Assembly: GCA_903813345.2 (NCBI GenBank)
Contig: CAIIXF020000004.1
Location: 27,469,985 to 27,533,984 of the forward strand
Source of the DNA: Owenia fusiformis
Taxonomy: Eukaryota; Annelida; Polychaeta; Sabellida; Oweniidae
Direction of reading: 5' to 3'
Length of the DNA stretch: 64,000 nt
Shown: in pieces, positions 2,920 to 60,645 of the stretch
Layout: each line of letters starts with the position of its first letter
Position numbering within the stretch: position 1 is the first letter of the stretch
Notes under the pieces: generated by a model
Databases searched by the model: none
Told to the model about the DNA's origin: nothing
The model's input: only the letters and a program-made list of their open reading frames with translations
Translations under genes and position numbers: made by a program

Positions 2920-3319
2920 GATGAATTTTCTGCTTTATTGAACAATGACCAAGGCTGTGCATGGACATATTTAAAATGTAATTCAACAAATCAAAATAAT
3001 AAAATGGATGGCAAAAACATGATTGCAACAGTCAAGGAATTTACTGAAAATTTGATGAATTTTCTGCTTTATTGAACAATGACCAAGGATGTGCATGGAC
3101 ATATTTAAAATGTAAATCAACCAATCAAAACAATAAAATGGATGGCAAAAACATGATTCCAACAGTCAAGGAATTTACTGAAAATTTGATGAATTTTCTG
3201 CTTTATTGAACAATGACCAAGGATGTGCATGGACATATTTAAATGTAAATCAACCAATCAAAATAATAAAATGGATGGCAAAAACATGATTGCAACAGTC
3301 AAGGAATTTACTGAAAATA
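2920..3319 (+). repeat. 134-bp triplication of the 5' end of DEG/ENaC gene A
   Basis: Three head-to-tail copies (2920-3053, 3054-3187, 3188-3319) each contain 5' leader, the start codon and about 16 codons beginning MDGKNMI. The unit is 134 bp (133 in the last copy), not a multiple of three. The copy-1 start (3004) and copy-2 start (3138) run into stop codons after 23 codons, and only copy 3 (ATG 3271) continues into the channel. Copies 1 and 2 are decoy starts or upstream ORFs if transcription begins upstream. Gene B has a single copy. Confidence 0.85.
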
Positions 3320-9464: not shown

Positions 9465-11120
9465 TTATAATGTAATAATCAACTGTCCAACGTATTCTTT
9501 CAGAATGTTTGATCTAACAATAGTCATTTTATGCACTATACATGCAATACTTATCATATCATCGTCATCAATTTCACACTCGGGATATGCAAATATCTTA
9601 TCTAGTTCTTTAAAAGCACCGTATTTTCTTGTAATTAAACCTATTTGGTTACGATGTTCTTGCCATTTTGGACATCTCATGATAAAGTGATCAATTGTTT
9701 CTGTTTCGAACCTGTTACAGACAATACAAATACTATTTACACCTGAATTTTTTACGCGTAGATCGTGACAATCAGTGGCTAGTCTCATCATTGTTTTACA
9801 CTGTGGGGTATATTGTGGTTTTTTCCTTGCCAAGATCCACCAGACGCAGGGTTTCATAGATCCAGGGGATCCGACACGTATATTTACATCGGAAATGTTA
9901 ACACATATATCATGGCGTCTATATAACGAACATGTTGCCTTGTAACCGTTTCTCTGGTAATTACCGATTGTGTTTTTAATCAGTCTCTTCCAATGAAGTT
10001 TAGAAGGAAATTGTGCTGTACGTATCATTTCTAGTAAGCTCTCTGTGAGGTCATATTTTACAACACAAGACCACATTCTGGAAATTGGGGAATCCCATGA
10101 TGCCAATCCTAGTGTTATATTCATGGGTCTTAACATTAATAAACGTTTATAAATATTCGAAAGTGGTAAAATAAGCATTCCAAATAACATAAGTAGCATA
10201 TCATAGTCAATTCTCCGCTTCATTGTGTTCCATCCCAGTGTCATGGTTGACGAGGGGTTGCTGGCGGATTTAGGAAAACTTTGTAATCTTCTCCCAATTT
10301 GGCGCTGTGCCACTTCGAGTGTTTCAAGATCTTCAGGCTTATAATTAATTATCTGGTCACCATAGAGCATTTTTGGCACGCTAAAGCTGTTATACAGTCT
10401 TGATGCTACGAGTGGGGTAAGGCCACCAGTTCTATGACCTAATCCGAATAGTGAATATAGTTTTCGCTTTCCGCTTGATATAGCGTCTTTAACATGGTCC
10501 CTAAATACTCCATCTGTCGACAGTGGAATTCCGACATGCTTGGCAGATTTGGCATTTGGTATTTCGCCCGTGCCTAACCTGAACTGTGGGACCTCAGTAT
10601 TTTTGCCATAGGTCAGGGCTACACATTTCCCAGGGTGTAAGGTGTATCGCCATTTGTTGCTGTGGGCATAAGCTAATTGCAGCATAGTGTTCATTGCATT
10701 AGGGAAGATAGCAATGAGAGCAATGTCATCTGCGTATGCTATAGAGCCTGTGTTGATTCCCATGGTTTTTGCTCCAAGATTTAATTTTTCAAGGTCGTCC
10801 AATAAGTCACTTATGTAAAATTGATAGAGCAGCATACTGCTGACGGCTCCTTGAAATACTCCTTGGAGCACCGGGAAGGGTTCGGATACTCCCCCTGCTA
10901 CCAGGATATTACATTCAAAGTTCTTGTACGAGTCATACAACAATCGCCAGAGTTTCCCTTTAATCCCGGCCTTATGGTACAGTTTGTAAAACAGGCCGTT
11001 TATCCAGCACGTATCAAAGGCAGATTTTATGTCTAATAACACCACGTGAACGGTACTGTCATGATGGGTATTAAATCCAATTGTCTCATGCAGAAGTAGT
11101 GATGAGTGTAGCGTAGTCAT
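9465..11120 (-). CDS. Non-LTR retrotransposon reverse transcriptase, 5'-truncated
   Basis: 551 aa. Reads from the palm domain: motif A LLDIKSAFDTCW, a motif-B-like QGVFQGAVSS, motif C AYADDIALI with the catalytic Asp pair, a thumb region, and a C-terminal Cys/His cluster (CIVCNRF...DHFIMRCPKW) typical of the LINE tail. The N-terminal endonuclease and the fingers part of the reverse transcriptase are absent. An in-frame stop lies about 30 nt upstream of the ATG, consistent with ordinary 5' truncation during insertion. The long intact frame implies recent insertion. It lies inside the inverted-repeat element, antisense to the neighbouring channel genes. Confidence 0.88.
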   Translation of the reverse strand: MTTLHSSLLLHETIGFNTHHDSTVHVVLLDIKSAFDTCWINGLFYKLYHKAGIKGKLWRLLYDSYKNFECNILVAGGVSEPFPVLQGVFQGAVSSMLLYQFYISDLLDDLEKLNLGAKTMGINTGSIAYADDIALIAIFPNAMNTMLQLAYAHSNKWRYTLHPGKCVALTYGKNTEVPQFRLGTGEIPNAKSAKHVGIPLSTDGVFRDHVKDAISSGKRKLYSLFGLGHRTGGLTPLVASRLYNSFSVPKMLYGDQIINYKPEDLETLEVAQRQIGRRLQSFPKSASNPSSTMTLGWNTMKRRIDYDMLLMLFGMLILPLSNIYKRLLMLRPMNITLGLASWDSPISRMWSCVVKYDLTESLLEMIRTAQFPSKLHWKRLIKNTIGNYQRNGYKATCSLYRRHDICVNISDVNIRVGSPGSMKPCVWWILARKKPQYTPQCKTMMRLATDCHDLRVKNSGVNSICIVCNRFETETIDHFIMRCPKWQEHRNQIGLITRKYGAFKELDKIFAYPECEIDDDDMISIACIVHKMTIVRSNILKEYVGQLIITL

Positions 11121-12170: not shown

Positions 12171-13394
12171 AAAGAAGCAGATGTATCTAAAAACACACGA
12201 AAACACGAGGACTACTTTCCAAGTAGTGTATTTTAAAATTTGTACAGACACCATCATATAGAATTTAAGAGTTGTTCAGACACCATCATTCTTCGAAACG
12301 AAAAACAGTCAAATCTCAAATAATATGCGTCCTCTGCTTGTCAATTTAGGTTCGTTTGAAAGACTGAGATAGTATACATAAGTGGGGAGATATTTGACGC
12401 TATTAACAAAGTATAAATATGAAAAATATTCATTTTTCTGGCTTAATCGAGAAAATCGTACAACTTGTTCAGACACCATCAATTACGAAGGTCACGTGAT
12501 GACAATCCCTACCGTGTGTGTATTGTAGTGCAAAATTTGAAATTATATAATTTTGTACTTAGAACCTGGCTTTCAACGCACTTAGCTACTAATGTACCAT
12601 ATTGCTGACATAAACACTTACTTATGTTATTGATTTCACTTCAATATTTCCAAATGGATTGTTTAATTCTTGTTAATATTTCTAAAGTTTTATAAGTAGA
12701 GCTGAGAGTGTAATGTAACAGCATAAAGTATGTTTAATGAGCATCATACAAGGCAATTTTCATGACGCCATGTTACAAACCCCGGATGCCAAACACAAAC
12801 CCATAACAAGTGGTTAAATAATAAATCTTGTATATAGACAAGAAGGAATATAACAGTGCACAAGTTTAGAACATCAGATATACTTTTGAAGGTAATCATT
12901 TCTAAATATTATAATTGCTGAGTAACATAAGCCGCAAAATAATACAATACTAGGATCAGTTATTCATTGAGAAATGAGGCATAAACTAGGATAAATACTT
13001 TTAAGGTTAACGTATCGTTCCTGAATATTTATACATATTATTTATATGTAATCGTTTAGTCAAGCGGCAAAATATTATAAATCCAATATCTGATATTCAT
13101 TGAAGACTGTAGGCTTAACTTATAGAGCGCTTATGTAAATAAAATATAATCAAATGTTGTGGAGACGGAGAAAAGGATTTGCCAAATTCATATTCACAGA
13201 CATTTCATAAGTCACGAAACAAACTCTCTAAAATGATTTGGCACAAAGAGGTTGTCTAAACACTTTCAATAAGTTGATATTCTATTTAAAGTTTAACACA
13301 GAAACTATAAAATGAATTTTCTGTCGAATGGAACAGTAGTCAAGACATTGCATGGATATATTTGAAATATAAATCAACCAATCAAAATAATAAA

Positions 13395-15065
13395 ATGGAT
13401 GGTGAAAATATGATTGTAACAATCAAGGAATTTACTGAAAATACCTCAGCACATGGATGTGGTCAAATTCCAACATCAAAATTTAAATTTACGAAATTTC
13501 TGTGGGGACTCATATTTGTGGGTTTCTTCTTGTTCGCGACAATAAGTTCTGTAAATTTAATAACTATTTTCTTCACATTTCCAACAAAAGATGTAGTTTC
13601 TGTCAACTTTGAGGATATTGAGTTTCCTGCCATGACATTCTGCACCCAGGAAGCTGTCACGGCAACAAGCCTAATTAATTTCATCGATAATCCAACACAC
13701 CGTAATAAGGCTGTTGAAGGAGTTGTGTCAACCATGACACTTTTCCAAGACTTTCTTGTTTACCCCAACATTGGTGGATTGGGCAATTGGTATTTTCAAT
13801 ACAGCTACAGATTTCTGTCAAACCAGTTTATCTATGAGAATATTGACCAAAAAGATATAAAAACATTTCAACATGATCTCCAAAGCTTAAAAATAAGTTG
13901 TACATTCAGAGGTGAGCCCTGTGAAGAATCTGCCTTTGTTGTGCATCAAGACGGAGGATTTCAGCATTGTGTCACATTTAACGGTGCAGGAGCACAATCA
14001 AATAATATGAAAGTCACGAAAACTGGCCCAACGTCAGGTCTTAGTTTGATCCTATTTGTGGATGCGTATACTTCAAAGAGGGACTTATCAGGATACACTC
14101 TATACAACCCATTTGATCCAACAAGCGGACAATCTGGAATCAGGGCCATTATTCATAGTCCAAAAACCAGGCCTATGCCATTTGAAAAAGGCTTCGATGT
14201 CCCAACTGGTTTTTCTACATCAGTTGCTCTCAAAGAAACTAAGCGAGAGTTGATGACTGAACCGCATGGTAACTGTACAACAGCTAAATTCAACAAAGGT
14301 ACAAATTATGCATACTCCGAGGATACATGTTTGGAACAATGTAAACAGGAACTTCTCATAGAAGACTGTGGGTGTATGAGTTCTATGTTGCCAACACCAT
14401 CTGGTGAATTGAAGCCTCAATACTGTGGAAAAGTAAATATCACAAATATGTTACATATGATGTTTCATAAATTAGATGAGACTATGCAGGCCATTGCTGA
14501 GAAGGAGCTCGAAACACTTGGTTGTGAAGCTAAGCTGATGGAGTCACTTGGTAACCCCGAGGTCCTGAACAAATGTGAATGCAAAGAACCATGTATGAAT
14601 ACCAACTATGTGAAGACAATATCCCAAGCAGTTTGGCCTAGCAACTATAACCAAAGGAAATTCTTTAAAGAGTCCATTAACATGAGTGATCCTATGCATA
14701 GAGCAACGATTCTATTTGAAGGACTTGAAATAGATGAAATCACAGAGGGTGAAAAAGAGATGATACAGAACAATTTTCTCAGGTTCAATGTGTACTTTGA
14801 GAGCCTTCAAGTTGAAACAACGTCCCAAGTCGAAGATTACCCAGCTTCGACATTAATATCTGAAATTGGTGGAAACATGGGCTTCTATGTTGGAATATCA
14901 ATTATAACACTAATGGAGATGTTGACCCTGACTGGTGCCATCATTCTTTACTGTTTTAAGGATTTTATTATAAAATGTGGACAAAGCAATAAAACTAAAG
15001 TATCAGATGTTAATATTAAACAAGTCAAAGCTTATGATAGCCATATGGATGAAGAAAAATTTTAA
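13395..15065 (+). CDS. DEG/ENaC family sodium channel, gene B (intronless)
   Basis: 556 aa, closely similar to gene A along its whole length. Motifs: His-Gly at 20-21, TM1 about 34-58, FPAMTFC after TM1, an extracellular domain with the same cysteines (DTCLEQCKQ, CECKEPC), TM2 with the G-I-S filter starting at the same residue numbers as gene A (NMGFYVGIS, Met495). The C-tail is slightly shorter and ends DEEKF. ATG 13395 corresponds to ATG 3271. The in-frame ATG at 13362 adds 11 residues not shared in frame with the duplicated leader copies. Upstream (12540-13390) and downstream flanks are homologous to those of gene A, so A and B arose by tandem duplication with starts 10,124 bp apart. Channels of this family assemble as trimers, and A and B could co-assemble (inference). 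Confidence 0.92.
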   Translation: MDGENMIVTIKEFTENTSAHGCGQIPTSKFKFTKFLWGLIFVGFFLFATISSVNLITIFFTFPTKDVVSVNFEDIEFPAMTFCTQEAVTATSLINFIDNPTHRNKAVEGVVSTMTLFQDFLVYPNIGGLGNWYFQYSYRFLSNQFIYENIDQKDIKTFQHDLQSLKISCTFRGEPCEESAFVVHQDGGFQHCVTFNGAGAQSNNMKVTKTGPTSGLSLILFVDAYTSKRDLSGYTLYNPFDPTSGQSGIRAIIHSPKTRPMPFEKGFDVPTGFSTSVALKETKRELMTEPHGNCTTAKFNKGTNYAYSEDTCLEQCKQELLIEDCGCMSSMLPTPSGELKPQYCGKVNITNMLHMMFHKLDETMQAIAEKELETLGCEAKLMESLGNPEVLNKCECKEPCMNTNYVKTISQAVWPSNYNQRKFFKESINMSDPMHRATILFEGLEIDEITEGEKEMIQNNFLRFNVYFESLQVETTSQVEDYPASTLISEIGGNMGFYVGISIITLMEMLTLTGAIILYCFKDFIIKCGQSNKTKVSDVNIKQVKAYDSHMDEEKF

Positions 15066-25138: not shown

Positions 25139-26216
25139 CAAAGCGTTTGACACGGTGGCTCACGAACGCCTCTTGCTCAAACTCGACTATTATGGAATTC
25201 GCAATAATAACTTGAACTGGTTCAGATCCTGGCTTGTGGGAAGATCACAGCAGGTAGTGCTCGATGGTGAATCAAGTTCAAAAACTCCAGTAAAATCAGG
25301 AGTTCCTCAAGGAACAGTTCTTGGACCACTCTGTTTCCTTGTTTATATCAATGATATGGGCAACAACCTATCATCCTCAGCCAGTCTTAAACTATTTGCT
25401 GACGACAGCCTTTTATTCATGACAGTCGAAAGCAAGCAAGATGCATTAACACTACAGGAGAATCTAGATAAACTGGTCTCCTGGGCATCAACATGGCAAA
25501 TGAAATTCCATCCATCAAAATGCTATGTGCTAAATATTCACAAAGGTAAATCCCCTATCATTCACAATTACACCATGCTAGGGGAAAACCTTAAGTCGGT
25601 AACACACATCCCATACCTAGGTATTGACATCACAAACAACTTACGCTGGACTACACATATTCAAACTATTGTATCCAAAGCCAATAAGATGCTTGGATTT
25701 CTCAGGCGCAACCTCCATCAATGCCCTGAAAAAGTGAAGGCTCAGGCGTATAAGTCACTTGTCCGGCCTAATTTAGAGTATGCCAGCTCGGCATGGGATC
25801 CATACCGACAAAAAGATATTGATATGTTGGAACAGGTACAGAGAAGAGCAGCAAGGTTTGTAACCAAATGTCACTCAAGGGAACCAGGCTGCGTCACCAA
25901 AGCTCTTCAAGACCTACAGTGGGAGCCACTGAAGGAGCGTCGAGAGGCTGCTAGAGTTTTCCTTTTCTACAAAGGAAAGCAAAACCTAGCAGCCATCGAC
26001 GTGCCTCCATACTTCCGCCAACAGATCAATACCAACACTAGGCTGTATCATCCTTCTAAGTTCATACAACCACCAACTAGAACGGATGTATACAAATTTA
26101 GCTATTTCCCTAAGACAATAGCTAAATGGAACACTCTACCTGGTGACATCCTAGACTGTGACAGTCTAAGTAGTTTTAAATCATCATACTATGCCTATGT
26201 CAATAACTGCAATTAA
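25139..26216 (+). CDS. Non-LTR retrotransposon reverse transcriptase, 5'-truncated
   Basis: Reading starts inside motif A (KAFDTVAHERLL at about 25139; first ATG at 25155) and runs uninterrupted for more than 353 codons. Motif B is SGVPQGTVLGPL and motif C is LFADDSLLF. The thumb and C-terminal region (RRAARFVTKCHSREPG, WNTLPGDILDC) are typical of LINE polymerases found in many invertebrates. There is no endonuclease domain or N-terminal reverse transcriptase. The element ends after an A/T-rich 3' tail with short gacata repeats near 26505. It belongs to a different family from the copy at 9465-11120. Confidence 0.9.
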
Positions 26217-45638: not shown

Positions 45639-48600
45639 ATGGCGTCAAAGCAGCTGTTAAACATTACAATAGTCAGTGATGTCATGTGACCTTGGTGTTG
45701 GGTCGGGAAGAGGAAGCTGGAATCCGCGATGAAATCTGTGCAAGATTTGTACGACTTCACAGTTCGCTGGGAACCTTTCCTTCTACGACCCCAGATGCCT
45801 CCTGAAGGTGTCGAAAAACCTCCCCCGCAAGCTGATTCACCAAGGTTTGTATTATTCTATGGGGTTGTACTTGAACATAAAGTTGTACTTCTTCTACATG
45901 TAAATGATTGTACTTCTAGTTCAACAGTTATACCATGGTTATACGTTGTGGTGAGACCCTATCTGTTGCAAGACTAACGCCATAATTTGTGGGAGAATGT
46001 TCACTTTCTGTATTGTCATAATTATGATGAATTCCAATTTTTATTAAATTATCAAGATGTATGTAGAAGATCATGTTTTTATTTTTGAGTTATTTCTTTT
46101 AATCATCAATAAAAAGTACAAAATAAGATTTTCTTGGAATGTGTACATTCTCCAATTTTGAAAACCCATGGTAATGTTTATGTATGAAATATGGGAAGTT
46201 GCCTACCCTTCTAGTTGAAAGCCCATGCTATAAGTGACCGTGACAATGTGTATTTGAAAACCTGGCATGACCGTGACAATGTATTATGGGATTACAAAGC
46301 CTGATATGACCGTGACAATGTAATATAGTATTGCAAGGCCAGGTATGAGGGTGGTAATGTAGAAATTTAGGCTTAGTCCTACTATGACCGTTATAATGTA
46401 TTGCAATGACTAGTAAAGATGTATGACATTAATGCCAGGAATATCCTTAACAATTTTAAGTGATCGTCATTACAATTAAACAGTTTAATACTATGATCAT
46501 GGTGTTTAACTACCTTAATCATGTCAAAATCAAAATTACTGCTATACATAATGTCCACATTCGCTTATAAACCACAATAAAGGCTACGGTCGCGTCAGGC
46601 TTCCACGATAACACTTCCAGGATCATGACAGGCCTTGCAATATAATACAGCATTGTCACGGTTATACCAGCCTGTCACGGTTATACCAGGCTTACACGAT
46701 AACACTACCACGGTCATGGCAGGATCCTTGCGCTACTTAAAAACACTGATTAACATGGCGACGGTTGTGGCAGGCGTAAGTCTTGCAATATTTGGTAATA
46801 GTTGTACAGTACATTGTAGTTCTAGTTGTACTTCTTCAAAGTTACTTCTTCATCGTTATACTCCCACATAATTATAGTATATTTTATGTACTGTATATTT
46901 ATTTCAAAATTTTTACACATTTTTACAACAGTGGTTTACAAAAGTGGAAGCCACATCCATCTAAGATACAACTTATTATTTTATTAAAGACATTTCACTG
47001 CATTAATCTTTAATCTTACATTTGCAGAGTCAACCCAAGGCTTAAGGAAGCTGGAGCAGCGGTTGGTATTGACTTTACTGGAAAATGTGGACGTTATCCT
47101 AATACACTACAGGCGCATGTCCTTCTAGAGTATGCCAAGGAGACAGATGGTGGGTCAAAGCAGAATGACATCGCTGAGCTACTATTCCAGGTATTGTAGC
47201 CATGGTTTTATTTAAGTTCAATTTCAATGCACCAGCCATGCAGGGGTTTCATTAGCAGCAGGTAACAGGCGATTTTCACCAGTTGTTTTTACAAAATCAT
47301 CTGTTGTTTTAGGGACTTTTCAAATTTTTCAAGTTAAAATGAATTCCATCAATCTTGACTGTTGTTTTCATTTATTTAGCCTGTTGTGAGAGATTCTAGT
47401 GAAACCCCTGTACAGGGTGACCAAAAATGAATGAAATGCGTTTTAATTTTTGACAGATTAAACTTTAAAATCACATGAAGTCAGAACTGTTTAAAATTAG
47501 ACATATAAGGAATATTAAAATGAAAAATGTAATTATAGGCTATTAATGTTTCATTGTTCAATTTAACGATTAATTGATGTATCCATTACAAATGGTTCAC
47601 AAATAGTTTACTACTGTATGATGAAGTGGTGACATCTATATTCAACCTGAATCTCTGCTTTATTTGAGTATTTAAGCACTGGATGTGATGCTTTACTTCT
47701 AAAACAAGACTGAAGGTCAATGTTTAGGTTGACATACTATCCATTAGTCTATCTATCTCTTAATCCCATCACATTGAGTCTGGCATGTCGGTTGCTTAAA
47801 TCCTTTTCAACCATTACAAAACAGCTTTATAAAACAAACAATAAAACAATACAATGTGATACAAAACAATACAATACAATACAATGCAACTACAGACAGG
47901 CAAGTCATTTGACAACACAACAATTTCCATTCAAATTTGAGATTTCTGTCCCAAAAGTGTACATTGAAAATTTAACTAATTTGCTAGCAGATTAGTCATC
48001 TATGTGAGAATTATATTTTAATGTCATATTCAAAATTTCTCTTGTATGAATTTCATATTCGATAAAACTTCCTTGTAAACAAATGTTGCATTTGAAGTAT
48101 CTTCTCTTCATTATGATTTGGGAACTGCTTCATAACAAATGTTAGATATCAGGCTCTTTCTTCTGTATGGACTTTTAAGTGCTCAGTTAGTGCAGGCTTT
48201 CTTGCAAATGTTTTAGAACAATTGTTGCGTTTGAAATTCTTTTTTCCTGTATGAATTCTATAATGACTGTTAAGAGAAGATTTTTGAGTAAATGTTTTTA
48301 AACAAACATCACATTGGAAATTCTTTTCTCCAGTATGAATTCTGTAATGTGTGTTAAGAGTAACCTTTTGCGTAAACATTTTTGAACAAACATCACACTT
48401 GAAGTTCTTTTCTCCAGTATGAATTTTATAGTGATCATGAAGAGAAGACTTTTGTACAAATGTTTTAGAACAATCATGACATTTGAAATTCTTCGCTCCA
48501 GTATGAAATTTATAATGTCTGTCAAGATATGACTTTTGCACAAATGTTTTAGAGCAAACATCACATTTAAAGTTCCTTTCTCCAGTATGAATATGAAAAT

Positions 48601-51600
48601 GTCTTGTTAACTCAGAATTCTGTGCAAATGCTTTAGAACAAGCATTACATTTAAAGTTTTTCTCTCCAGTATGACTTCTGTAATGATGATTTAGAGAAGA
48701 CCTTTGCCCGAATGCTTTAGAGCAAACATCACATTTGAAATTCTTTTCTCCAGTATGAATTCTATAATGTCTGTTTCGATCGTAGTTTCGTGCAAATGTT
48801 TTAAAACAAATATCACATTTAAAGTTCTTCTCTCCAGTATGAATTTTATAATGTAAGTTAAGACTAGACTTTCGCCTGAATAGTTTAAAACAAACATCAC
48901 ATTCAAAGTTCATTTCTTCAGTATGAATTTTGGAATGTTTTGTTAGATAAGATTTTTGTGCAAATGTTTTAAAACAAACATCACATTTGAAATTTTTTTC
49001 TCCAGTATGAATTCTATAATGACCGTTTAGATGATGCTTATGGCGAAATGTTTCAGAACAAACATCACACTTGAAATTCTTTTCTCCAGTATGAATTCTA
49101 CAATGCTCATTAAGATGAGACTTATGGCGAAATGTTTTAGTGCAAACATCACACTTGAAATTCTTTTCTCCAGTATGAATTTTATAATGGCTGTTAAGAG
49201 AAGCCATTTGCATAAATGTTTTTGAACAAACATCACATTTGAAGTTCTTTTCTCCAGTATGAATTTTGTAATGCTTATTAAGATGAGACTGTGTCACAAA
49301 TATTTTAGAACAAATACTACATTTCAAGTTGTTTTCTCCAGTATGATATCTATGATGTACATTAAGATTAGACTTCCGTGCAAATGTTTTAGAACAAATA
49401 TTGCATTTGAAGTTCTTTTCTCCAGTATGAGTTCTATAATGATCGTTAAGTGTAGATTTTTGCGTAAATGTTTTTGAACAAACATCACACTTGAAGTTCC
49501 TTTCTCCAGTATGAATTCTATAATGCACATTAAGATGAGACTTTTGTGCAAATGTTTTAGAACAAATATTGCATTTGAAGTTCTTTTCTCCAGTATGAAT
49601 TCTATAATGGCTGTTAAGGGCAGATTTTTGTGTAAATGTTTTTGAACAAACATCACACTTGAAGTTCTTTTCTCCAGTATGAATTCTATAATGTGTGTTA
49701 AGTTTAGACCTTTGTGTAAATTTTTTAGTACAAACATCACATTTAAAGTTCTTTTCTCCAGTATGAATTCTATAATGTTCGTTGAGAGAAGACTTCTTCC
49801 CATATCTTTTAGAACAAACATTGCATTTGAAGTTCTTTTCTCCAGTATGGATTTTATAATGTTCAGCTAGTACTGACTTAAATCTGTACACTTTATGGCA
49901 TATATCACAAATATGTTCTCCTTTCTGGCCATTAGCTAGTCTCTGAACACCACTACTTATCACACCATCATCATTTATCACACCACCATCATTATTCATC
50001 ACACCGTTTGCATTATTCAACACACCATCCACATTGTTGACCTTGCTGCATGTATCATGGTCCATGGTGTTTTCCATAGTAATGATAAATTCAAAATATT
50101 GCCTTCCTAAATTAAGTATTATTACTTCACTCCAAGTAAAGGTCAGATTAGTTTAATTTTTATTGAATTAAGGTATGTATATATTTTCATTGATAGTGAA
50201 CTTCATTACAATCTCAGCCTGGTCATGAATCATGATGTAGTCTTGGAATTCATATACCTCTCTGATATCCAAATGTCCAAAGCATCATTTTCTGTTGAAA
50301 ATACGATTTAATTTACATGCAGTTGATATCATCAAATAACATCCCCGGGATAAAACCACTAGCCTCTCCTGAATCAAAGACTTTTGTGGCATAATGTTTC
50401 GTGTTTTTCAAGTAACTTGTAATATTCTTGACTCCTGGTTCTTTGTGTTGCATTGGTTCCTGTGTAGCTCCGTTTAATGTTACGGTTTTTCTTTCACATA
50501 TAACCATGCAGTAATAGTCTTATTTGGTATAAGCTTAGATAAGCTAAAATGTGTTGTTATATCCCAACTGAAAGAGCCCCTGTTGATTGTAAAGCTGTTG
50601 GATTAAAATATTTGAATACCGTATTCTCTGTAATTACCGCCCACTCTCTAATAAGCGCCCACCCCGCTTCACAAAGTTCAAGAAACATCGAGGAATCAAC
50701 AAGAATTGAAGAATATATCAGGAAAAAAATATTTCTCAAAATCCAGGAGCGGGCGATAATAGAGTACTTACCCTAAAACTGCTGTAAACACGACGCGTTT
50801 TGTAATTCTATGCATCCTCTCGATACATATCTATCGATGGATGCTTCCCACGCCATACCATGCTAATATTGTCTCCAAATAGTCCATAATGAATGAAGGA
50901 ATTGTTCTTTATCGGCATTCAGAAATTTCAAAAGCTACTGCGCAGATGTTCTGCGCATGTCAAGGTCGTGAACTTTCTGGTTTCTTTTTAATGTTTCTCG
51001 ACTTTTACACGACTTTTGCACGAATTAATGATGATCTCTCATCAAATTAGAAATAATGTATAACTTTAGATCGATATCCAGCAGTCTCTAGTGGAAATAT
51101 TGAAGGTAATCGGCGATAATGACAAAGTGGGCGTGCCGGAAATAAATTAGACATAGACGGGTCTTCAACCACTGTCAATATTGTCTAAGCGATCTTTACC
51201 GTATTCTCTCCAATAACAGCACTTGTCATATTATTATAAAAATATGTTGAAGAAAATGCATTCTTGTCAAGAAAAATTGCCATACATGAAATTCCTCGGG
51301 ATTTCTGATTTCTTTCATACATGGGCGCTTATTAGAATGGTCTAAATAATGTATTTTCAATTTTCTAAACGCCCTGGGCGCTAATTACAGAGAATACGGT
51401 AGGTTCTATTGCTTCTTGCAGTTTAATTGAAACAAGAACAATAATCAGTTAAATTGGCTTATAAATAAACTCAAATGTATATTGTTATATTGAGTCCCCT
51501 GTTGATTTTATTAATGTCTGATTAAAATATTTGAATAGATTTAGCTGTTTTAAGAGCTATGTATTGTGTTCTACTTGGCATATATAGGGTGTCTCAAAAA

Positions 51601-54600
51601 ATGTACCCAAAAGTATATCAATACCATAGACAAACCAATCAATATTTTCAGACATTTTTTGCATGGTCTTTTAGATAAAAGATGAATGTTTTTTCTCCTA
51701 TACACAGTTTTTAATTCAGTTTTGCCTTTTTGATACTTTAACCCGTTATCTTTTACACCACATATTCAATGTAATCTCATTTTGTAATGACAGTCTGCAT
51801 CCTTACTACTAATGTTCATCACATTTGATATTTCTGGTAGAATGTTTTGATTTCTGTTCTGATGCTTGGTCTTAAGTTACATTTGCAGATGTATAGCTTT
51901 ATTATACTCAAATGAAAGGCAATTTAAAGTAAATTGAAAATATTGTATCGTTTTTTCTGGTTCGGGCCTCGTAAAATTCAAAATGGCCACCTAATGTGGG
52001 ATTTCTCAATAATTTTCTGATCTCTTAGAAGTACATGTATGTCTATTTTATACTCAAATTGAAGGAATTTTAGAGTAGATCACACTCATAGTATTGTTCT
52101 TCTGATTTGTGCCTCAGAAAATTCAAAATGACTGCCTTAGAGCAGGAATTCACCATTACTTAGCGATATCTTTAAAGTATGATACTACAATGATCTCAAG
52201 TATTTATTGAAGGGAAAAGTAGATGGTAAATATTACATTGTGACTTTACAGATTCATGATTTATATAGTGTTCATACTATTTTTGTTTTTATCAATTTAA
52301 ACATATTGAAAGTTTCTTCTACACTATATTAATAATTTCTGAAAAGGGGATGCGTGTTGAAAACCATTAAAGTTAAAAACCACATATCCCATTTTATTTT
52401 CCCCTGGGGAAAACTTGTGCTATCCATTGTTTTCTGTATAATTTTGGTCATCGAAAAGGATCCGTTACCCCATATACCTAAAGATGCCCCAAAAGGTTTC
52501 ATTGAATATAACATGGAAATAGTTACTTTTATCAATTATGAACACATCCAAAACAAAATTAGGTCATAGGGATTAAAACTAAGGTCATTCAGTGCATTTA
52601 AGTTTGACTATGCAAATCATTCTAAATATCATGTTACGGGTATGTTAGTCTTCACTGATGACATATTGACGATTCAATCAATCAAAATATCAAAATATCA
52701 TGAAGGTAGGACACAAAGGGCAACATATTGAAACACACAAATCATAAAATTATCAAAATTGTAAAAAAAAGTCTTGTATGTAAAGTCTTGTCTACGCGTT
52801 TTCAGGTGAACCATTTGGTAGATCAATTTCAAATTTTTAGGGATGATTCTTATTATGAAAATCTAGATCTGATTAGTTTTTTGGCATTCTGGGTAAATGG
52901 CAAGGCAGCCATTTTGGATTTTCCGTCCTAAAATCTTGCCTGTAAAGTCTTGTCTATGTGTTTTCAGGTGAACCATTTGGTAGATCAATTTCAAATTTTC
53001 AGGGATAATTCCTTGTATTAAAATCTAGAACTGATTAGTTTTTTGGCATTCTGGATAAATGTCAGGGCTGCCATTTTGGATTTTCCGTCCTAAAATCTTG
53101 TCTGTAAAGTCTTGTCTACGCGTTTTCAGGTGAACCGTTTGGTAGATCAATTTCAAATTTTCAGGGATGATTCTTAGTATGAAAATCTAGAACTGATTAG
53201 TTTTTTGGAATTCTGGGTAAATGTCAAGGCAGCCATTTTGGATTTTCCGTCCTAAAATCTTGTCTGTAAAGTCTTTTCTACGTGTTTTCAGGTGAACCAT
53301 TTGGTAGATCAATTTCAAATTTTTAGGGATGATTATTATTATGAAAATCTAGATCTGATTAGTTTTTTGGCATTCTGGGTAAATGTCAAGGCAGTCATTT
53401 TGGATTTTTCCGTCCTAAAATCTTGTCTGTAAAGTCTTGTTTACGTGTTTTCTGGTTTACTCTTTGACGGATCAATTTCAAATTTTCAGGGATGATTCTT
53501 AGTATGAAGATCTAGAGCTGACTAATTTTTTGGCATTCTGGGTAAATTTTTGCATTTTCCATCCCAAAATTGTAACGGTAAAGTCTTGTCTACTCATTTC
53601 AGGATAACCATTTGACGGGATCACCCATTGGTGGTGACATATTGTACACATTTGTGTTCTTGTCTCCAGTATGAATTCTACAATGATCATTAAGATGAGA
53701 CTTTTGGCGAAATGTTTTAGAGCAAACATCACACTTGAAATTCTTTTCTCCAGTATGAATTTTATAATGCCTGTTAAGATTAGTCTTCTGCATAAATGTT
53801 TTTGAACCAACTTCACATTTGAAATTCTTTTCTCCAATGTGAATTTTGTAGTGTACATTAAGATGAGACTTTCACACAAATGTTTTTGAACAAATATCTC
53901 ATTTGAAGTTTTCTCCAGTATGATATCTATAATGCACATTAAGATTAGAATTTCCTGTAAATGTTTTACAACAAACATCACACTTGAAGTTCTTTTCTCC
54001 AGTATGAATTTTATAATGTACCTTAAGATGCGACTTTTGCACAAATGTTTTGGAACATGTATTACACTTGTGGTTCTTTTCTCCAGTATGAGTTTTATAA
54101 TGTACCTTAAGATAAGACTTCTGGGCAAATGTTTTAGAACAAATGTTACACTTGTGATTCTTTTCTCCAGTATGAATTTTATAATGTACCTTAAGATAAG
54201 ACTTCTGCGCAAATGTTTTAGAACAAATGTTACACTTGTGGTTCTTTTCTCCATTATGAATTCTATAATGTACCTTGAGAGAAGACTTTTGCACAAATGT
54301 TTTGGAACATTTCCACGAGGAAAAAAACAAAATACAAAATGAACAATATCAAACATTTGAATAAAATAGAGAGTTTCTGGGATGGAAAATCCAAAATGGC
54401 CACCTTAGCATTTTCCCCGAATGCCCCAAAACTAACCAATTCTAAACTTTCAAAGTTAGAAACGCTTTCATATCATGTCATATCATATCATATCATATAC
54501 ATACATTTATCGTATGCAAAGTTGAGTTTTAGGGAGATAAGTTGGTAAGATATATCCCGTATCCTGATTTTGAGGTTTCCATATCCAGAACCTCCATATC

Positions 54601-56706
54601 TCCCGCCATATCTCCCGCTTCAGTGCATATCTTCCCGCTTCCGGTAATTTCACTGAAAACTCTACTTGGTATAGGATAAAGCAGTTATGTACGGTCGGTT
54701 TGGATATTGGGTTCATCCCTCGTGAGATGTGCACATCTACCTTCGGTCCCTACGGTCCCTCAGGTAGATATGCATATCTCCCTCTGGATAAACCCCATAT
54801 CCAAAACCTCCCAGTACATAACCCTTATGTATATCATGTACATGTGTTTGTCAATGTTTTCCAGTCTATTTTACAGATGGTACCTACCCTACTGCCAAAT
54901 GTCATATCATATATCATGTACATGTGTTTGTAAATATTTTCCAGGCATATTTCACAGATGGTACCTACCCAGATGCCAAATGTCTTTTGGACATTGCTGG
55001 TAAAGTAGGACTGGATAAGAATGCTGTTAAAGATTTGTTAAAATATGAAGGCAAAGTTGAGGAGGCGCGTCAGAAGGCACGTTATTGGGCACAGCAGGCT
55101 GTCTCAGGTGAGAGCAGGAATAGTTTAATTACAAGTATAGGAAGACCTCAGGTCACCTCATAATGGGTCGCCAAGGGTCACTCTATCCTTCAAGGGCCTT
55201 AAAACTCCAAATACCTAGATATTGACCTTTGACCTTGGAATGACCTTGACCTCAGGTCAGCTAATCATGGTTCGCTTAGAGTAATAGCAGCCCCCAAGGT
55301 CTTTAAAACATCAAATACAAATATTGACAGATATTGACATTTGACCTTGGAATGACCTTGACACATTAAGTTGACCTTTACCTCAGGTCATTTAATCATG
55401 GGTCATCAAGGGTCACCGCACAGACCAAGGGTCTTAAAAAGCCAAATACCTAGACATTGGCCTTCGACCTTGAGATAACCTTGACCAATGAACATTGACC
55501 TGGACCACGGGTCACCTTATTATGGGCACAGACAAAGGGTCTTAAAAAGCCAAATACTTAGATATTGACCTTGGAATGACATTGACCTCTGACCTTTGTA
55601 TAATGCCCACCAACAACACTTAGTAAGTTGACCAAATATGAGGCCCCAAGGTCAAATGGGTTTTGGTAAAAAGGCGTTGGGGGTGTTATTGATATGGAAT
55701 TAAATATTTCACACATTGATTAGACTGGACGAACATTCTGAAAAATTGCTGAAAGTAAGGGTCATGGGGTCATTTAAAGCTTCCCAATCTATCAATTTCT
55801 GTTTTCTCTGTTTATAGAATGAATGGATCCTTCCACCCCTACAAAAATAATACAAGAGCCCACCTGGGTCACCTGCCTGCAAAATACAGAATGCTGATAT
55901 ATCATAAATATTGTTTGGTTTTCACATCTCAAATTGTGTTCGTACTTCAATTTCCTCACTTGAATGAACGTTATACTTCCAAAATACATGTTAACGTACA
56001 CCCACACCTTTTTACCCAAACCATTTTAAGCACCCTGTAGACCCCACACCCAATGCCTTTTTACCCAAACCCAGGTCAAACTGTCCAGGAGGAGATGTCC
56101 AGACAGACAGAGAGAGATACCAGGCAAGGTGTGTCCAATTCCAGCCAATCTGAACAGAGTATTCAAATAATGAACAGTGTGTGAAATATCAATAACGCAT
56201 TTGTTGAGTACAGTTGCTATGCAATTGAGATTGAAATTGAGTTGTTCAATACTTGACCTTTGCAAAAAGTTTCATTGAAAATATGTTCTTTTAGTGATTT
56301 TGTATCTTTTAGGTGATTTTATAGAAAATATTTCGCAATGTGGGAAAAGAATTTAAGCCCAAGACTCAATGCATTGTGGCTGCTTCATTCCACTCAGATG
56401 TTGTTTCCTTTAAGCTTTGCATTCCTTGCGGGGTCATGCAAAGATTTGGAATTTTGGAATGGTTCAGCACACAACGGACTGAGTCCAAGGCTTAAATCCT
56501 TAAACATTGATCGCATTTTCAGTACATTTACACTGTGTATTTATTTCCAAAAGTAATCATTATGCCATTCAATTTATTTTCCAGGAGTGCCATGTTTCTT
56601 CATGAATGGTGTGCGTACCTTCTCTGGAGCTCAGGACCCCGATGCATTCGTCAACATGTTTAAGAAAGTAGCGGAGAAATATCCTGCCAAATCTGAAGCT
56701 GTTTAA
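45639..56706 (+). CDS. DsbA/FrnE-family thiol oxidoreductase selenoprotein (TGA = Sec17)
   Basis: Exons 45639-45844, 47028-47190, 54945-55107 and 56585-56706 total 654 nt = 217 aa plus TAA, all with GT/AG borders and matching phases. The product has the thioredoxin-fold DsbA domain of the FrnE/2-hydroxychromene isomerase-like group: N-terminal strand LLNITIVSDVM, redox motif U17-P-W-C20 followed by WVGKRKLESAM, VRWEPFLLRPQMPPEG, the helical insertion with GRYPNTLQAH, AYFTDG, and the cis-Pro loop GVPCFF (Pro180). Normal family members have CPWC; here the first Cys codon is TGA (45687-45689). Start 45639 is chosen because it gives the full beta-strand before the motif and the expected family length; the next ATG (45729) would lose the active site. 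A SECIS-like element follows at 57052-57134. No signal peptide is seen, so it is probably cytosolic. The zinc-finger gene lies antisense in intron 2. Confidence 0.9.
45687..45689 (+). other. In-frame TGA read as selenocysteine
   Basis: The codon sits at the first redox position of the CxxC motif (U-P-W-C), exactly where selenoproteins carry Sec. Coding similarity to the family continues on both sides in the same frame (SDVM before, PWCWVGKRKLE after). The TGA is 155 nt upstream of the first exon junction, so unread transcripts would be open to nonsense-mediated decay. Confidence 0.85.
46200..46770. repeat. Intronic direct and inverted repeats (ATGACCGTGACAATGTA family)
   Basis: In intron 1 of the selenoprotein gene, tgaccgtgacaatgt recurs four to five times at 46230-46400. 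The inverse (cattgtcacggttata, cacgataacact) recurs at 46600-46760. The two halves could pair in RNA. The interval also resembles nothing coding. Confidence 0.6.
47820..47900. repeat. ACAAT-type microsatellite
   Basis: Runs of acaatacaat and close variants (acaaaacaat) at about 47830-47895, in intron 2 of the selenoprotein gene. Confidence 0.6.
48149..50077 (-). CDS. C2H2 zinc-finger protein, 21 tandem fingers, intronless
   Basis: 642 aa, probably a nuclear DNA-binding protein. An Asn/Asp/Gly/Val-rich N-terminus with 7-residue repeats (GVLNNAN, GVMNNDG, GVINDDG) precedes 21 fingers spaced 28 residues apart, each C-x2-C-x12-H-x3-H. Twenty are canonical; the last has Arg in place of its first Cys (FKRNNCSKTF). 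Linkers are TGEKNFKC rather than the usual TGEKP, in nearly every finger, a sign of recent internal duplication or gene conversion. Contact positions differ between fingers (QKSHLNV, RKSNLNV, QKSYLDR), so DNA specificity may vary. No KRAB, SCAN or BTB domain. It lies antisense in intron 2 of the selenoprotein gene. ATG 50077 is the first in frame; ATG 50065 is an alternative. Confidence 0.93.
   Translation of the reverse strand: MENTMDHDTCSKVNNVDGVLNNANGVMNNDGGVINDDGVISSGVQRLANGQKGEHICDICHKVYRFKSVLAEHYKIHTGEKNFKCNVCSKRYGKKSSLNEHYRIHTGEKNFKCDVCTKKFTQRSKLNTHYRIHTGEKNFKCDVCSKTFTQKSALNSHYRIHTGEKNFKCNICSKTFAQKSHLNVHYRIHTGERNFKCDVCSKTFTQKSTLNDHYRTHTGEKNFKCNICSKTFARKSNLNVHHRYHTGENNLKCSICSKIFVTQSHLNKHYKIHTGEKNFKCDVCSKTFMQMASLNSHYKIHTGEKNFKCDVCTKTFRHKSHLNEHCRIHTGEKNFKCDVCSETFRHKHHLNGHYRIHTGEKNFKCDVCFKTFAQKSYLTKHSKIHTEEMNFECDVCFKLFRRKSSLNLHYKIHTGEKNFKCDICFKTFARNYDRNRHYRIHTGEKNFKCDVCSKAFGQRSSLNHHYRSHTGEKNFKCNACSKAFAQNSELTRHFHIHTGERNFKCDVCSKTFVQKSYLDRHYKFHTGAKNFKCHDCSKTFVQKSSLHDHYKIHTGEKNFKCDVCSKMFTQKVTLNTHYRIHTGEKNFQCDVCLKTFTQKSSLNSHYRIHTGKKNFKRNNCSKTFARKPALTEHLKVHTEERA
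50619..51399. mobile_element. MITE with CCGTATTCTCTGTAATTA ends and TA target duplication
   Basis: The left end CCGTATTCTCTGTAATTACC is inverted at 51377-51399, with TA on both sides (617-618 and 400-401 of the respective kilobases), as for Tc1/mariner-type or similar elements. 781 bp. No transposase. An internal copy of the end (accgtattctctccaataac) occurs at about 51199. A diverged relative is at 28430-29060. Confidence 0.75.
52767..53640. repeat. Tandem repeat, 162-bp unit, about 5.5 copies
   Basis: The phrase taaagtcttgtctacgcgtt starts copies near 52781, 52943, 53105, 53267 and 53430, with a last shortened copy near 53579. Each has gtgaaccatttggtagatca and gccattttggattttccgtc. It runs straight up to the degenerate zinc-finger fragment. 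It lies in intron 2 of the selenoprotein gene. The 51.6-52.7 kb stretch before it is unremarkable AT-rich DNA with a few similar 'aaaatggc' phrases. Confidence 0.85.
53655..54312 (-). pseudogene. C2H2 zinc-finger pseudogene fragment
   Basis: About eight fingers of the same TGEKNFKC/TGEKNHKC style as the 48.1-50.1 kb gene. The copy begins mid-finger (KCSKTFVQKSS) and has two in-frame TGA codons nine codons apart (53899-53901 in place of the first Cys; 53872-53874 in place of a Gln). One finger has Gly instead of its second Cys (CEVGSKTF). There is no start codon or leader. Fingers upstream of the stops remain intact. It is best read as a truncated, decaying duplicate. Sec is not suggested here, because neither TGA lies in a redox motif and the copy is otherwise degenerating. 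Confidence 0.85.
54826..54908 (+). repeat. Decoy duplicate of the selenoprotein exon-3 acceptor
   Basis: The block atatcatgtacatgtgtttg ... ttttccag plus about 40 bp of exon 3 (acagatggtacctaccc) occurs 80 bp upstream of the real copy (acceptor 54941-54944). The decoy exon start is one base shorter, so splicing to it would shift the frame. Confidence 0.8.
55129..55620. repeat. TGACCT-rich tandem repeat with DR1-like sites
   Basis: Roughly five imperfect units of about 90-110 bp (caaatacctagatattgacc, ttggaatgaccttgac, aggtca). A perfect TGACCTTTGACCT, the DR1 nuclear-receptor consensus in reverse, occurs at 55223-55235 and variants recur. It lies in the last intron of the selenoprotein gene. 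Such text is also known as ordinary repeat in marine invertebrate genomes, so function is unproven. Confidence 0.65.
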
Positions 56707-56874
56707 TGTGATACTTGATTACCATTATGTTAAATATATAATAACAATATGACTTTATTGTCATGAAAAACAATTCCAGAATAATATAGACACAATGGCA
56801 ATATATAGTGGTGATTAACGATAGGAGATGTTACCAAGTTAACTACTTGAACTATGTTATAGTAAACCTATTAC

Positions 56875-56944
56875 AGAGTGACCAAAAACAATTGAAAAAT
56901 ATTTAAATAACGGGTAGGGTTCTGCTTTTTTGGGTCACCCTGTA
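56875..56944. mobile_element. 70-bp inverted-repeat element in the selenoprotein 3' UTR
   Basis: ACAGAGTGACCAAAAA at the left end is inverted as TTTTTGGGTCACCCTGT at the right. It lies between the stop codon and the SECIS. A single-ended relative (acagggtgaccaaaaatga) occurs at about 47413. Confidence 0.6.
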
Positions 56945-57051
56945 TTATTAAAACAATTATAAAAGACACAAATACCCAAGAGGGAGAAGTTAATGTAGCA
57001 GTGAAAATGAATCTTGTATTGAGAATATTGGACTAATCATTCATATACTTT

Positions 57052-57134
57052 ATGTTGTTAAAGGACCAATGAAGGCAAGATTTAAAACTAATTTAGCAGC
57101 ATATCTAGCCAGATAATTTCAGCCTTTATAACAT
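57052..57134 (+). promoter_or_regulatory. SECIS element (selenocysteine insertion signal), form-2-like
   Basis: Helix I: ATGTTGTTAAAGG (57052-57064) pairs with CCTTTATAACAT (57123-57134), with one bulge and one G-U. Internal loop: ACC.. on the 5' side and AATTTCAG on the 3' side. Non-Watson-Crick quartet: ATGAA (57069-57073) opposite AGAT (57111-57114), giving U-U, G-A, A-G, A-A. Helix II: GGCAAGATTT (57074-57083) with ATATCTAGCC (57101-57110), two mismatches. Apical AAAA (57084-57087) begins 11 nt after TGA, the standard distance, followed by a small CTA/TAG stem. It is 346 nt past the TAA at 56704-56706. All conserved SECIS landmarks are present. Confidence 0.85.
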
Positions 57135-57440
57135 TAGTATATCTTTGGTAATTTCAATGTTGGAGACTTCATTCTGAAGAGAGCAAAAATTCTGCTAATT
57201 TTGGTTTAAAGGCCCTATGAAAAGTTTAAAAATATCTATTAATTCAAATTTTATTTGTAATTTACACTGAAAATTTATTTTAAAAAAATCTTTGTTTTTG
57301 ACTATTTTAATTCAAATACTTTTTTAAAATATTTTTTTTCTACAAATTTTTAATTTGCTCTTTGCTAGCACAATGACAATAGTTTCAGTGTGATTATATA
57401 TTTACATTTAGAATTTATTATGTTCACAAATCTTTCCTTA

Positions 57441-58051
57441 GCTTGTATTCGCTAGAACCGTCCGCCGACTGACGATGACATAATAACCGGTATTTATGAA
57501 TAAATTAAACCGTCATTTTGATGCTGAAATAACGATCAGAGCAAGTTAACTGACGGTGGTCACGTGATGGTCACGTGATATTTTTATGCCACTATCACGT
57601 GATTACATGTCTTACATGCAAAATGGCGAATAAAAGAAAACTAGTGGTGCTTTTACTCGAGGAAATAGCAGAAAGTTCGGAGAGTTCAGGTGAATCCGAG
57701 GATTCTTCGGACAGTGAAGATGAAGAGGTCATGCTACTGAGCATATTGAGGAGGGACATTCCAAAAATACTGTCGTTCTGCGACACAGTTGAGGAGTTTG
57801 ACAACCTTTGCTTATGCGCATGCGCGTAATGTACTTCCGCTAGCTGAAATACCGAACACATCGAAAGTCGTTGTCAGTTGTCACTTAAGTAAACACATCA
57901 AAGCGTTATTTAGGTCAGCGACCGGGTCTTAGCCGATAGATAGCGACTGTCGATATGCACAGCAGGTCCTTTTCATCTTTTAATGGATTGGCCATAAAAT
58001 AACAATTAAATCGCCAGTCGCCCTCCGTTATTTGTACTAGCGAATACAAGC
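57441..58051 (+). mobile_element. Short PIF/Harbinger-like element with 15-bp TIRs and TTA duplication
   Basis: GCTTGTATTCGCTAG at 57441 is inverted at 58037-58051, and TTA flanks both ends, the target choice of PIF/Harbinger. Inside is a short ORF (57623-57829 from MANKRKLVVLLLEEIAES, or 57575 with more N-terminal residues) with a Ser/Glu-rich stretch, then LLSILRRDIPKILSF. It could be the remains of a transposase start, but I do not recognise a domain. Three TCACGTGA E-box palindromes occur at 57558-57603. The AATAAA at 57499-57504, the first after the SECIS, lies in this element. Confidence 0.7.
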
Positions 58052-58850
58052 TTAGTTCTTGTTTGTATTTTGAATATAAATGTAAGAGAATAAGGATGTA
58101 ATTAATAAAGATTTATTATAAGTACAAATATTTTGAGTACAATAGAAAATATATTATGAGTAAAGGTAATATATTTACAGTACAAAGGCATATTCATCAT
58201 GTAACAGTATAATATGCACAAAAATACTTTATTGGTATAAAATCATTATATTTACTGATATTTGTTGTGATAATTAATTATATTTATGATAATAAATGTA
58301 ATTGTCAATAGTTTATCTAATTGTTCTTATGTGCTATATTTACTTTTCCATTTAAACAAACTGTTCTCATCAAATGCTCATTTCTAATGTATTGATTTAA
58401 CATTTACAATATACAAATCACAAGATAAAACATGTAAGTAATGTAGCCATATCCATACACTTCCAAGAAAATAGGTAGGAAGATGTTAAACTAAAATCAT
58501 GCCAATAGCTTAGAAAAGGTAGAATTTTGCAAAAATTCTCTTGAAGACCTCGCTGCACTTTTCAACAAACAAAATTTAACAGACAGGCAGGGCATTTTTA
58601 CATTTGGATGATTTCATTCAGTTTTTAGATGGCTGTTTTGAAAATGTAGGTTGAAAAATCTGTCCGTCTGTTTGTCTGTCCATTCGTGTGTCAGGGCAAT
58701 AACTCAAATACCGCTAAACGATAATTCAAATCTGCTGGAGAAGAAATTTTCAATATGGCAATTCAATTCAAAATTGCCACTATTTTTTGTAAAAAAGTAA
58801 TCTTAGATAACTCAAATATTAGTTGACCAATTTAGTTTTATTTTCGAAAT
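58052..58850. other. AT-rich spacer, no gene seen
   Basis: The stretch at about 58640-58720 holds the gtccgtctgtttgtctgtcc repeat related to the GGAC repeat at 41.1 kb. Nothing else is recognised. Confidence 0.4.
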
Positions 58851-58854
58851 TGCT

Positions 58855-59690
58855 GGCATCATGTATCACACTATCTGCATTATTTATTACACCATCAGCA
58901 TCACACTATCGGCATTATTTATTACACCATTGGGATCACACTACCAGCATTATTCATGATATTATCAGCATCATGTATCACACTTTCAGCATTATTCATG
59001 GCACCGTCAGCATCATGCATCACACTATTTGCATTATTAATTACACCTTTGGCATCATGTATGACACTATCAGCATTTTTCATGACATTATCTGCATCAT
59101 GTGTCACACTATCGGCATTATTCATTACAGCAATGTGTATCACACATTCGGTATTATTTATTACACCATTGGTATCATGTTTCACACCATCAGCATTATT
59201 CATGGCACCGTCAGCATCATGCATCACACTATCGGCATTATTTATTACACCATCGGCAAAATGTATCACACCATCATCATTTATTACACCATTGGCATCA
59301 TGTTTCACACCATCAGCATTATTCATGACACCATCAGCATCATGTGTCACACTATCGGCATTATTTATTACACCACCAGCATCATTCATGACACTCATAG
59401 CATCATGTATCACACTATTGGCATTATTTATTACACCATTGGCATCAAGTGTCTCACTATTGGCATTATTTATTACACGATTGGCATCACATATTGCACT
59501 ACCAGCATTATTCATGACACCATTAGCATCACACTATTGGCATTATTTATTACACCATTGGGATCATGTATCACACTATCAGCATTATTCATGACACCGT
59601 CAGCATCATGTGTCACATTTTTGGCATTATTTATTACACCATCGGCATTATTTATTACACCATCGGTACTAAGCAAATATTTCATTCTAT
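58855..59690 (-). repeat. 21-bp minisatellite related to the zinc-finger leader
   Basis: About 40 imperfect 21-bp units alternate as attattcatgacaccatcagc and atcatgtatcacactatcgg. The unit is a multiple of three and mostly free of stops, so several frames stay open on both strands (312 codons plus, 197 codons minus). On the minus strand it reads 7-residue repeats such as GVINNAD and SVMHDAD, similar to the N-terminus of the zinc-finger protein at 50.0 kb (GVLNNAN, GVMNNDG). Short further copies lie at 60000-60060. No start, domain or splice context supports a gene here. Confidence 0.85.
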
Positions 59691-60645
59691 GGAGGGCAAT
59701 ACCTGTTCATCTTTCAATGATTTTTGCGGTATGTATTGCCCGCAGCCCGTATCATTGCTAGACATTCCCTATGATCATTTATTTTTATCAATTAATATAT
59801 CATTAATCCATAAGTGAACATAATTACGTACAAGTATCATTGAATGGTACACTTTATTTTCGTCCAGTGTAGTTGTCAGAATTCCCGGGCGGGCAATACG
59901 CCGGGCAATACGTCTTTTATTATCCTAAAATTGAGGGAGCTGTGAAATACGTTATGGTATTTTTGATCACATGGTACTGACTCGACCAATCAAATCACAC
60001 AATTACACCATCATCATCATACCATTTGCATTATTTATTACACCATCAGCATTATTTTTAATTTACACTTCTGTAGGCTGAAATAAATAGGCATGCCCAT
60101 ACATTTTAAGAGAATATATCTGACAAAGAAGATGTTAAGCCAAACGTTTCCCTGATAGCTCTGAAAATTGTGTTATTTTTCTCTCTATAAGCCTTGTTGC
60201 CACTTTAAACAGTATTGATCCATTTCATAGATAATTATATGTACAGATTTTTCTGTTCATTAAACAGTTAATAATATTTACATTCCAATGTTTTTTAAGT
60301 TAATACTATATAAATGAAATTGAGATCACAAATTCAGTATCTCTTGCAATATATTTACATGTAATCTACCATTTATTTATCCCCATCTACAGATAAGTAA
60401 AAGTTGTTTATCTGACCGAAAAAAGTGATCTGATATCCAGGTGTTCTGATGTACATAAGATACTGTAAATCCGAAATGTAGATAATGCAAATGACACTGA
60501 GTTTTACATTGGTGCTGTTATTCCTTTTCACGAAATAAGTAGTAGTTCAATGTTCATTTCTTCATTATAAACCTATTGAGTTCATTCATGGTAAACTGTC
60601 TGGTTTAATTAAAACACCATATCTGATTATTTTTTTAGTGAAAAT

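Follow-up and report, generated by a model that had tools for sequence, protein, structure and literature searches.

A four-exon gene on the + strand of the analysed window (a 64,000-nucleotide stretch of the Owenia fusiformis genome) encodes a protein of 217 residues with one in-frame TGA, and a SECIS-like element lies downstream of its stop codon. The features of the locus, with the evidence for each in brackets, are:

45639–45844, + strand: exon 1, with the start codon, first beta-strand and U-P-W-C active site (GT donor; in-frame join; genome-wide Pfam DSBA match with one TGA inside)
45687–45689, + strand: TGA at codon 17, in frame and proposed to specify selenocysteine (all 21 bacterial relatives and the aligned PDB chains have Cys here)
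45729–45731, + strand: downstream in-frame ATG (reading of the open reading frame)
47028–47190, + strand: exon 2 (AG acceptor and GT donor, in frame; matched in the whole-protein genome search)
54945–55107, + strand: exon 3 (AG acceptor and GT donor, in frame; matched in the whole-protein genome search)
56585–56706, + strand: coding part of exon 4, with the GVP (cis-Pro) motif and the stop TAA at 56704–56706 (AG acceptor, in frame; matched in the whole-protein genome search)
56947–56952, + strand: ATTAAA, 5' of the SECIS-like element (pattern only)
57052–57134, + strand: SECIS-like element (descriptors, fold and sub-threshold Rfam SECIS_1 alignment)
57499–57504, + strand: AATAAA, the first one 3' of the SECIS-like element and a candidate poly(A) signal (pattern only)

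Joining the four GT–AG-bordered exons gave an in-frame open reading frame of 217 codons plus TAA, in agreement with the sequence-only reading of this DNA, which had proposed four exons in phase encoding a FrnE-like protein of this length. The TGA at codon 17 is the sole internal stop, frameshifts are absent and all splice sites are intact. When the assembly (498 Mb, 525 contigs) was searched with Pfam DSBA, a single place was found, exon 1, with the TGA inside the match; a search with the whole protein matched the four exons and nothing further. Within the reach of these searches, which worked exon by exon, the FrnE/DsbA gene is present in one copy; a diverged Cys paralogue could escape them.

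Several other features were observed in the window. A direct repeat with a spacing of ~80 nt (54830–54903 and 54910–54984) lies at the exon 3 acceptor; its upstream copy is a slightly diverged version of the acceptor site together with the opening 40 nt of exon 3 (94% and 89% identity in two parts), making an additional potential acceptor without a full exon. Intron 2 holds C2H2 zinc-finger arrays on the − strand, recognized by eye (48149–50077 and 53899–54330). Two similar uninterrupted open reading frames lie at 3223–4965 and 13362–15065; the former belongs with sodium channels of the FMRFamide-gated and acid-sensing types, the nearest being FMRFamide-gated, and the latter was assigned by its resemblance to the former. 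Such a pair would suggest a lophotrochozoan genome. Reverse transcriptase-like open reading frames of retroelements were seen by eye at 9465–11120 (−) and 25155–26216 (+), and a long repetitive stretch at 58823–59761 is open in several frames on both strands.

The 217-residue protein matched Pfam DSBA (PF01323) with 103.4 bits against a cut-off of 25.6 (E = 1.7e-29), over residues 9–201 and model positions 2–188 of 191, which places it among the FrnE/DsbA-like oxidoreductases by the Pfam cut-off. No family was matched in NCBIfam, a library built for prokaryote annotation. The nearest PDB sequences were the FrnE protein (5cp1, 5cnw and others; E = 8.6e-20) and the putative DsbA oxidoreductase 3gl5 (E = 3.4e-11), among three distinct sequences in all that passed E = 0.01. 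Homology to these solved FrnE sequences is enough to settle the fold. In a single scan of prokaryote genomes, relatives with 30–36% identity were found at 21 bacterial loci. The TGA-PWC of the Owenia gene aligned to CPWC or CPFC in all 21, with Cys throughout in the TGA column, in a set biased toward motif carriers as one of the six search peptides held the motif with Cys; the PDB chains, retrieved with X at the TGA position, likewise show Cys there. The TGA at 45687–45689 had been assigned beforehand to the first active-site Cys, and these alignments bear that assignment out. The GVP region aligned to GVP, SVP or AVP in the bacterial relatives, so that the CXXC-type site and the cis-Pro loop are both placed as expected. 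Upstream of the TGA, the codons encode the conserved first strand LNITIVSDV, matching the bacterial relatives. The Owenia protein resembles the FrnE of 5cnw and 5cp1 and bacterial FrnE/DsbA-like proteins in the residues near the active site and in the cis-Pro region; it differs in having UPWC where they have CP[WF]C. An in-frame TGA where relatives have Cys, as looked for in a selenoprotein gene, is therefore present.

The SECIS-like stem begins 346 nt past the stop TAA, at the distance that the sequence-only reading had given, and has its AUGA at 57069. Helix I (57052–57064/57123–57134) comprises 12 bp with one bulge and is followed by an internal loop and by the SECIS-like core, in which AUGA (57069–57072) stands opposite GA (57112–57113). 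In helix II (57074–57083/57101–57110), eight of ten positions are paired in the descriptor and seven pairs are present in the centroid fold. The apical loop opens with AAAA (57084–57087) and holds a 3-bp mini-helix (57088–57090/57094–57096), and the layout as modelled is that of a form II SECIS. The AUGA core is partly paired in the minimum-energy fold and open only in the centroid fold. Fold stability gave z = −2.65, with 1 of 200 shuffles equally or more stable. Rfam SECIS_1 could be aligned to 57060–57126 over all 64 model positions, keeping the AUGA, AAA and GA motifs in register, at 14.4 bits (E = 2.5), below the gathering threshold of 35. The element was reported neither in a wider cmscan of 56585–60000 at E ≤ 10 nor in a genome-wide SECIS_1 search in which 150 of 11,861 candidates were scored. 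Use of the AATAAA at 57499 as poly(A) signal would retain the element in the mRNA, and the ATTAAA at 56947 could end the transcript before it.

The specificity of the element was assessed with descriptors of different stringency. With the strict descriptor, the element at 57052–57134 was the sole match on the + strand of the window, and the − strand had none. Dinucleotide shuffles of the 1,000 nt after the stop matched in 4 of 2,000 cases, a figure that flatters the element because all three descriptor versions were composed after it had been seen. Relaxing helix I from −9 to −6 kcal/mol raised this to 12 of 2,000 and added one − strand match in the window. An earlier descriptor gave ten matches (three on the + strand, seven on the − strand), including one at 21397 (+) with a helix I about equally strong. 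With the loose descriptor, 165 matches were found in the window; the element scored 11.8, eight others scored higher (best 24.4), all of them on the − strand, and none elsewhere on the + strand scored as high. The looser descriptors are thus not specific. As a positive control, the loose descriptor ranked a SECIS_1-matched element 1.3 kb past a glutathione peroxidase exon first in its own locus (10.3); downstream of the other glutathione peroxidase genes (three loci) it gave no clear SECIS.

That control element comes from the genome-wide SECIS_1 search, which gave three places at E ≤ 10 among the candidates scored. Its 24.9 bits are below the cut-off but above the 14.4 of the FrnE element, and the Sec motif of the neighboring exon was not readable. 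Since this glutathione peroxidase-associated match is also sub-threshold, the SECIS_1 model may be weak for the Owenia genome, even though the match scored better. The two other places have no assigned gene, and one may be a false positive.

The selenocysteine machinery was searched for in the same assembly. For tRNA-Sec, 29 matches were listed, 3 over the Rfam cut-off (best 76.1 bits) and 26 below, in a search that also gave matches in 14 prokaryote control genomes, 5 of them over the cut-off. SepSecS was represented by eight exon matches over the cut-off, grouped on a single contig. Both tRNA-Sec and SepSecS, the machinery looked for behind a eukaryotic selenoprotein, were therefore found. 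Glutathione peroxidase exons were read with a motif that we take to mark the Sec site; in the four where it was readable, TGA occupied this site in three (NVASK-TGA-G once, NVATY-TGA-G twice) and Cys in one. One further motif match in a glutathione peroxidase exon locus was spurious. The Rdx (SelW/T/H) search returned one match, covering positions 41–69 of 74, a part that presumably excludes the Sec site. Wnt genes are not known outside animals, and 42 wnt exon matches, compared to none in the 14 prokaryote controls, identify the genome as that of an animal.

The sequence-only reading could not say whether an animal Sec-containing FrnE had been catalogued; the finding is not novel in kind, as such proteins have been catalogued since 2010 (PMC2874816, PMC3473315, PMC3965025). 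The first Sec-containing DsbA of multicellular organisms, including that of Ciona intestinalis, was described in that year (PMC2874816). By that description, selenocysteine stands in place of the first CXXC Cys of a DsbA-like protein and a SECIS lies in the 3' region, as is proposed for the Owenia gene; in both Ciona the SECIS is of form II, the layout modelled for the SECIS-shaped element of Owenia (PMC2874816). The same account states that the stretch of exon 1 which holds the Sec codon was once annotated as UTR, a parallel to the truncation that the standard code would impose on the Owenia gene. In 2012, DsbA was described as a Sec protein widespread among marine invertebrates, with Sec forms counted in Nematostella vectensis (two), Lottia gigantea, Capitella teleta and Branchiostoma floridae (one each), Cys forms in Amphimedon and Trichoplax, and vertebrates listed without the family (PMC3473315). 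Set against these animals, Owenia has one copy found, with neither a second copy nor a Cys form detected by the genome searches. In what these two papers describe, the Sec form occurs in six other animals in all (PMC2874816, PMC3473315). SelenoDB 2.0 includes FrnE (DsbA) among its annotated animal selenoprotein families, citing the 2010 paper; the family has the same name and kind, and no difference from the Owenia protein is seen in its description (PMC3965025). A platyhelminth study places DsbA among selenoproteins present in many other animals (PMC3828610), and algal Sec-FrnE/DsbA proteins have been described (PMC6627142, PMC7539508). Among the literature matches listed, none paired DsbA with oyster in its title or the start of its abstract. 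The Owenia gene is an ordinary further member of this known selenoprotein family.

As originally proposed, the locus is best read as encoding an animal selenoprotein of the FrnE/DsbA type whose active site is U-P-W-C. This reading draws on the open reading frame, the Pfam and PDB homology, the Cys column at the TGA and the SECIS-shaped element, on tRNA-Sec, SepSecS and the TGA-containing glutathione peroxidase exons of the genome, and on the Sec form published for six other animals. Judged from the sequence, this is very probably a four-exon animal gene for an FrnE-type oxidoreductase of DsbA fold, in which the nucleophilic catalytic residue would be selenocysteine, with UGA decoded via a form II SECIS. 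One alternative is that the gene is decaying into a pseudogene or is misassembled, a Cys codon having turned into TGA through mutation or faulty sequencing, with a stem-loop that arose by chance. This would require a single base change, TGT and TGC each being one base from TGA, and would suit both the sub-threshold SECIS_1 score and the many similar stem-loops that loose descriptors find in the window. Such decay or error would nonetheless have to spare 217 codons from any other stop or frameshift, keep the splice sites intact and strike precisely the catalytic position, with a SECIS-shaped element carrying the core motifs downstream; Sec at this position is, moreover, the form published for other marine invertebrates (PMC2874816, PMC3473315). 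We consider this explanation improbable.

Even less credence is given to translation from the ATG at 45729, by which the gene would make a shortened, non-catalytic protein and the upstream part would be 5' UTR. This ATG is in frame, and a gene caller using the standard code could predict such a start. Because the conserved first strand is encoded ahead of the TGA, initiation at 45729 would lose this strand as well as the active site; the preservation of LNITIVSDV is unlike what is expected of a 5' UTR. The sequence-only reading was right that the product would lack the catalytic motif, the ATG lying downstream of strand and active site alike.

For the selenoprotein reading, the following mechanism can be proposed. 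UGA at codon 17 would be decoded as Sec through the form II SECIS in the 3' UTR, with a SECIS-binding protein, the Sec elongation factor and tRNA-Sec as decoding helpers. The U17-P-W-C20 pair would then cycle through a selenenylsulfide, by which disulfides could be oxidized, reduced or isomerized. The protein is probably cytosolic, since the chain opens in the first beta-strand and no leader is visible by eye. We infer that transcription would extend beyond the SECIS, that Sec would be inserted, that the protein would be active and where in the cell it would reside.

That the species has no FrnE/DsbA-like protein other than the Sec form, and no Cys form as back-up, is a tentative suggestion that we regard as somewhat doubtful. 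If true, all of this function would hinge on the supply of selenium, by way of a single AU-rich, low-scoring form II SECIS. The Owenia FrnE gene leaves knowledge of animal Sec use unchanged; it extends a known animal selenoprotein family, one that is easily overlooked, to a further genome and provides an example of a gene that annotation under the standard code would truncate at the active site.
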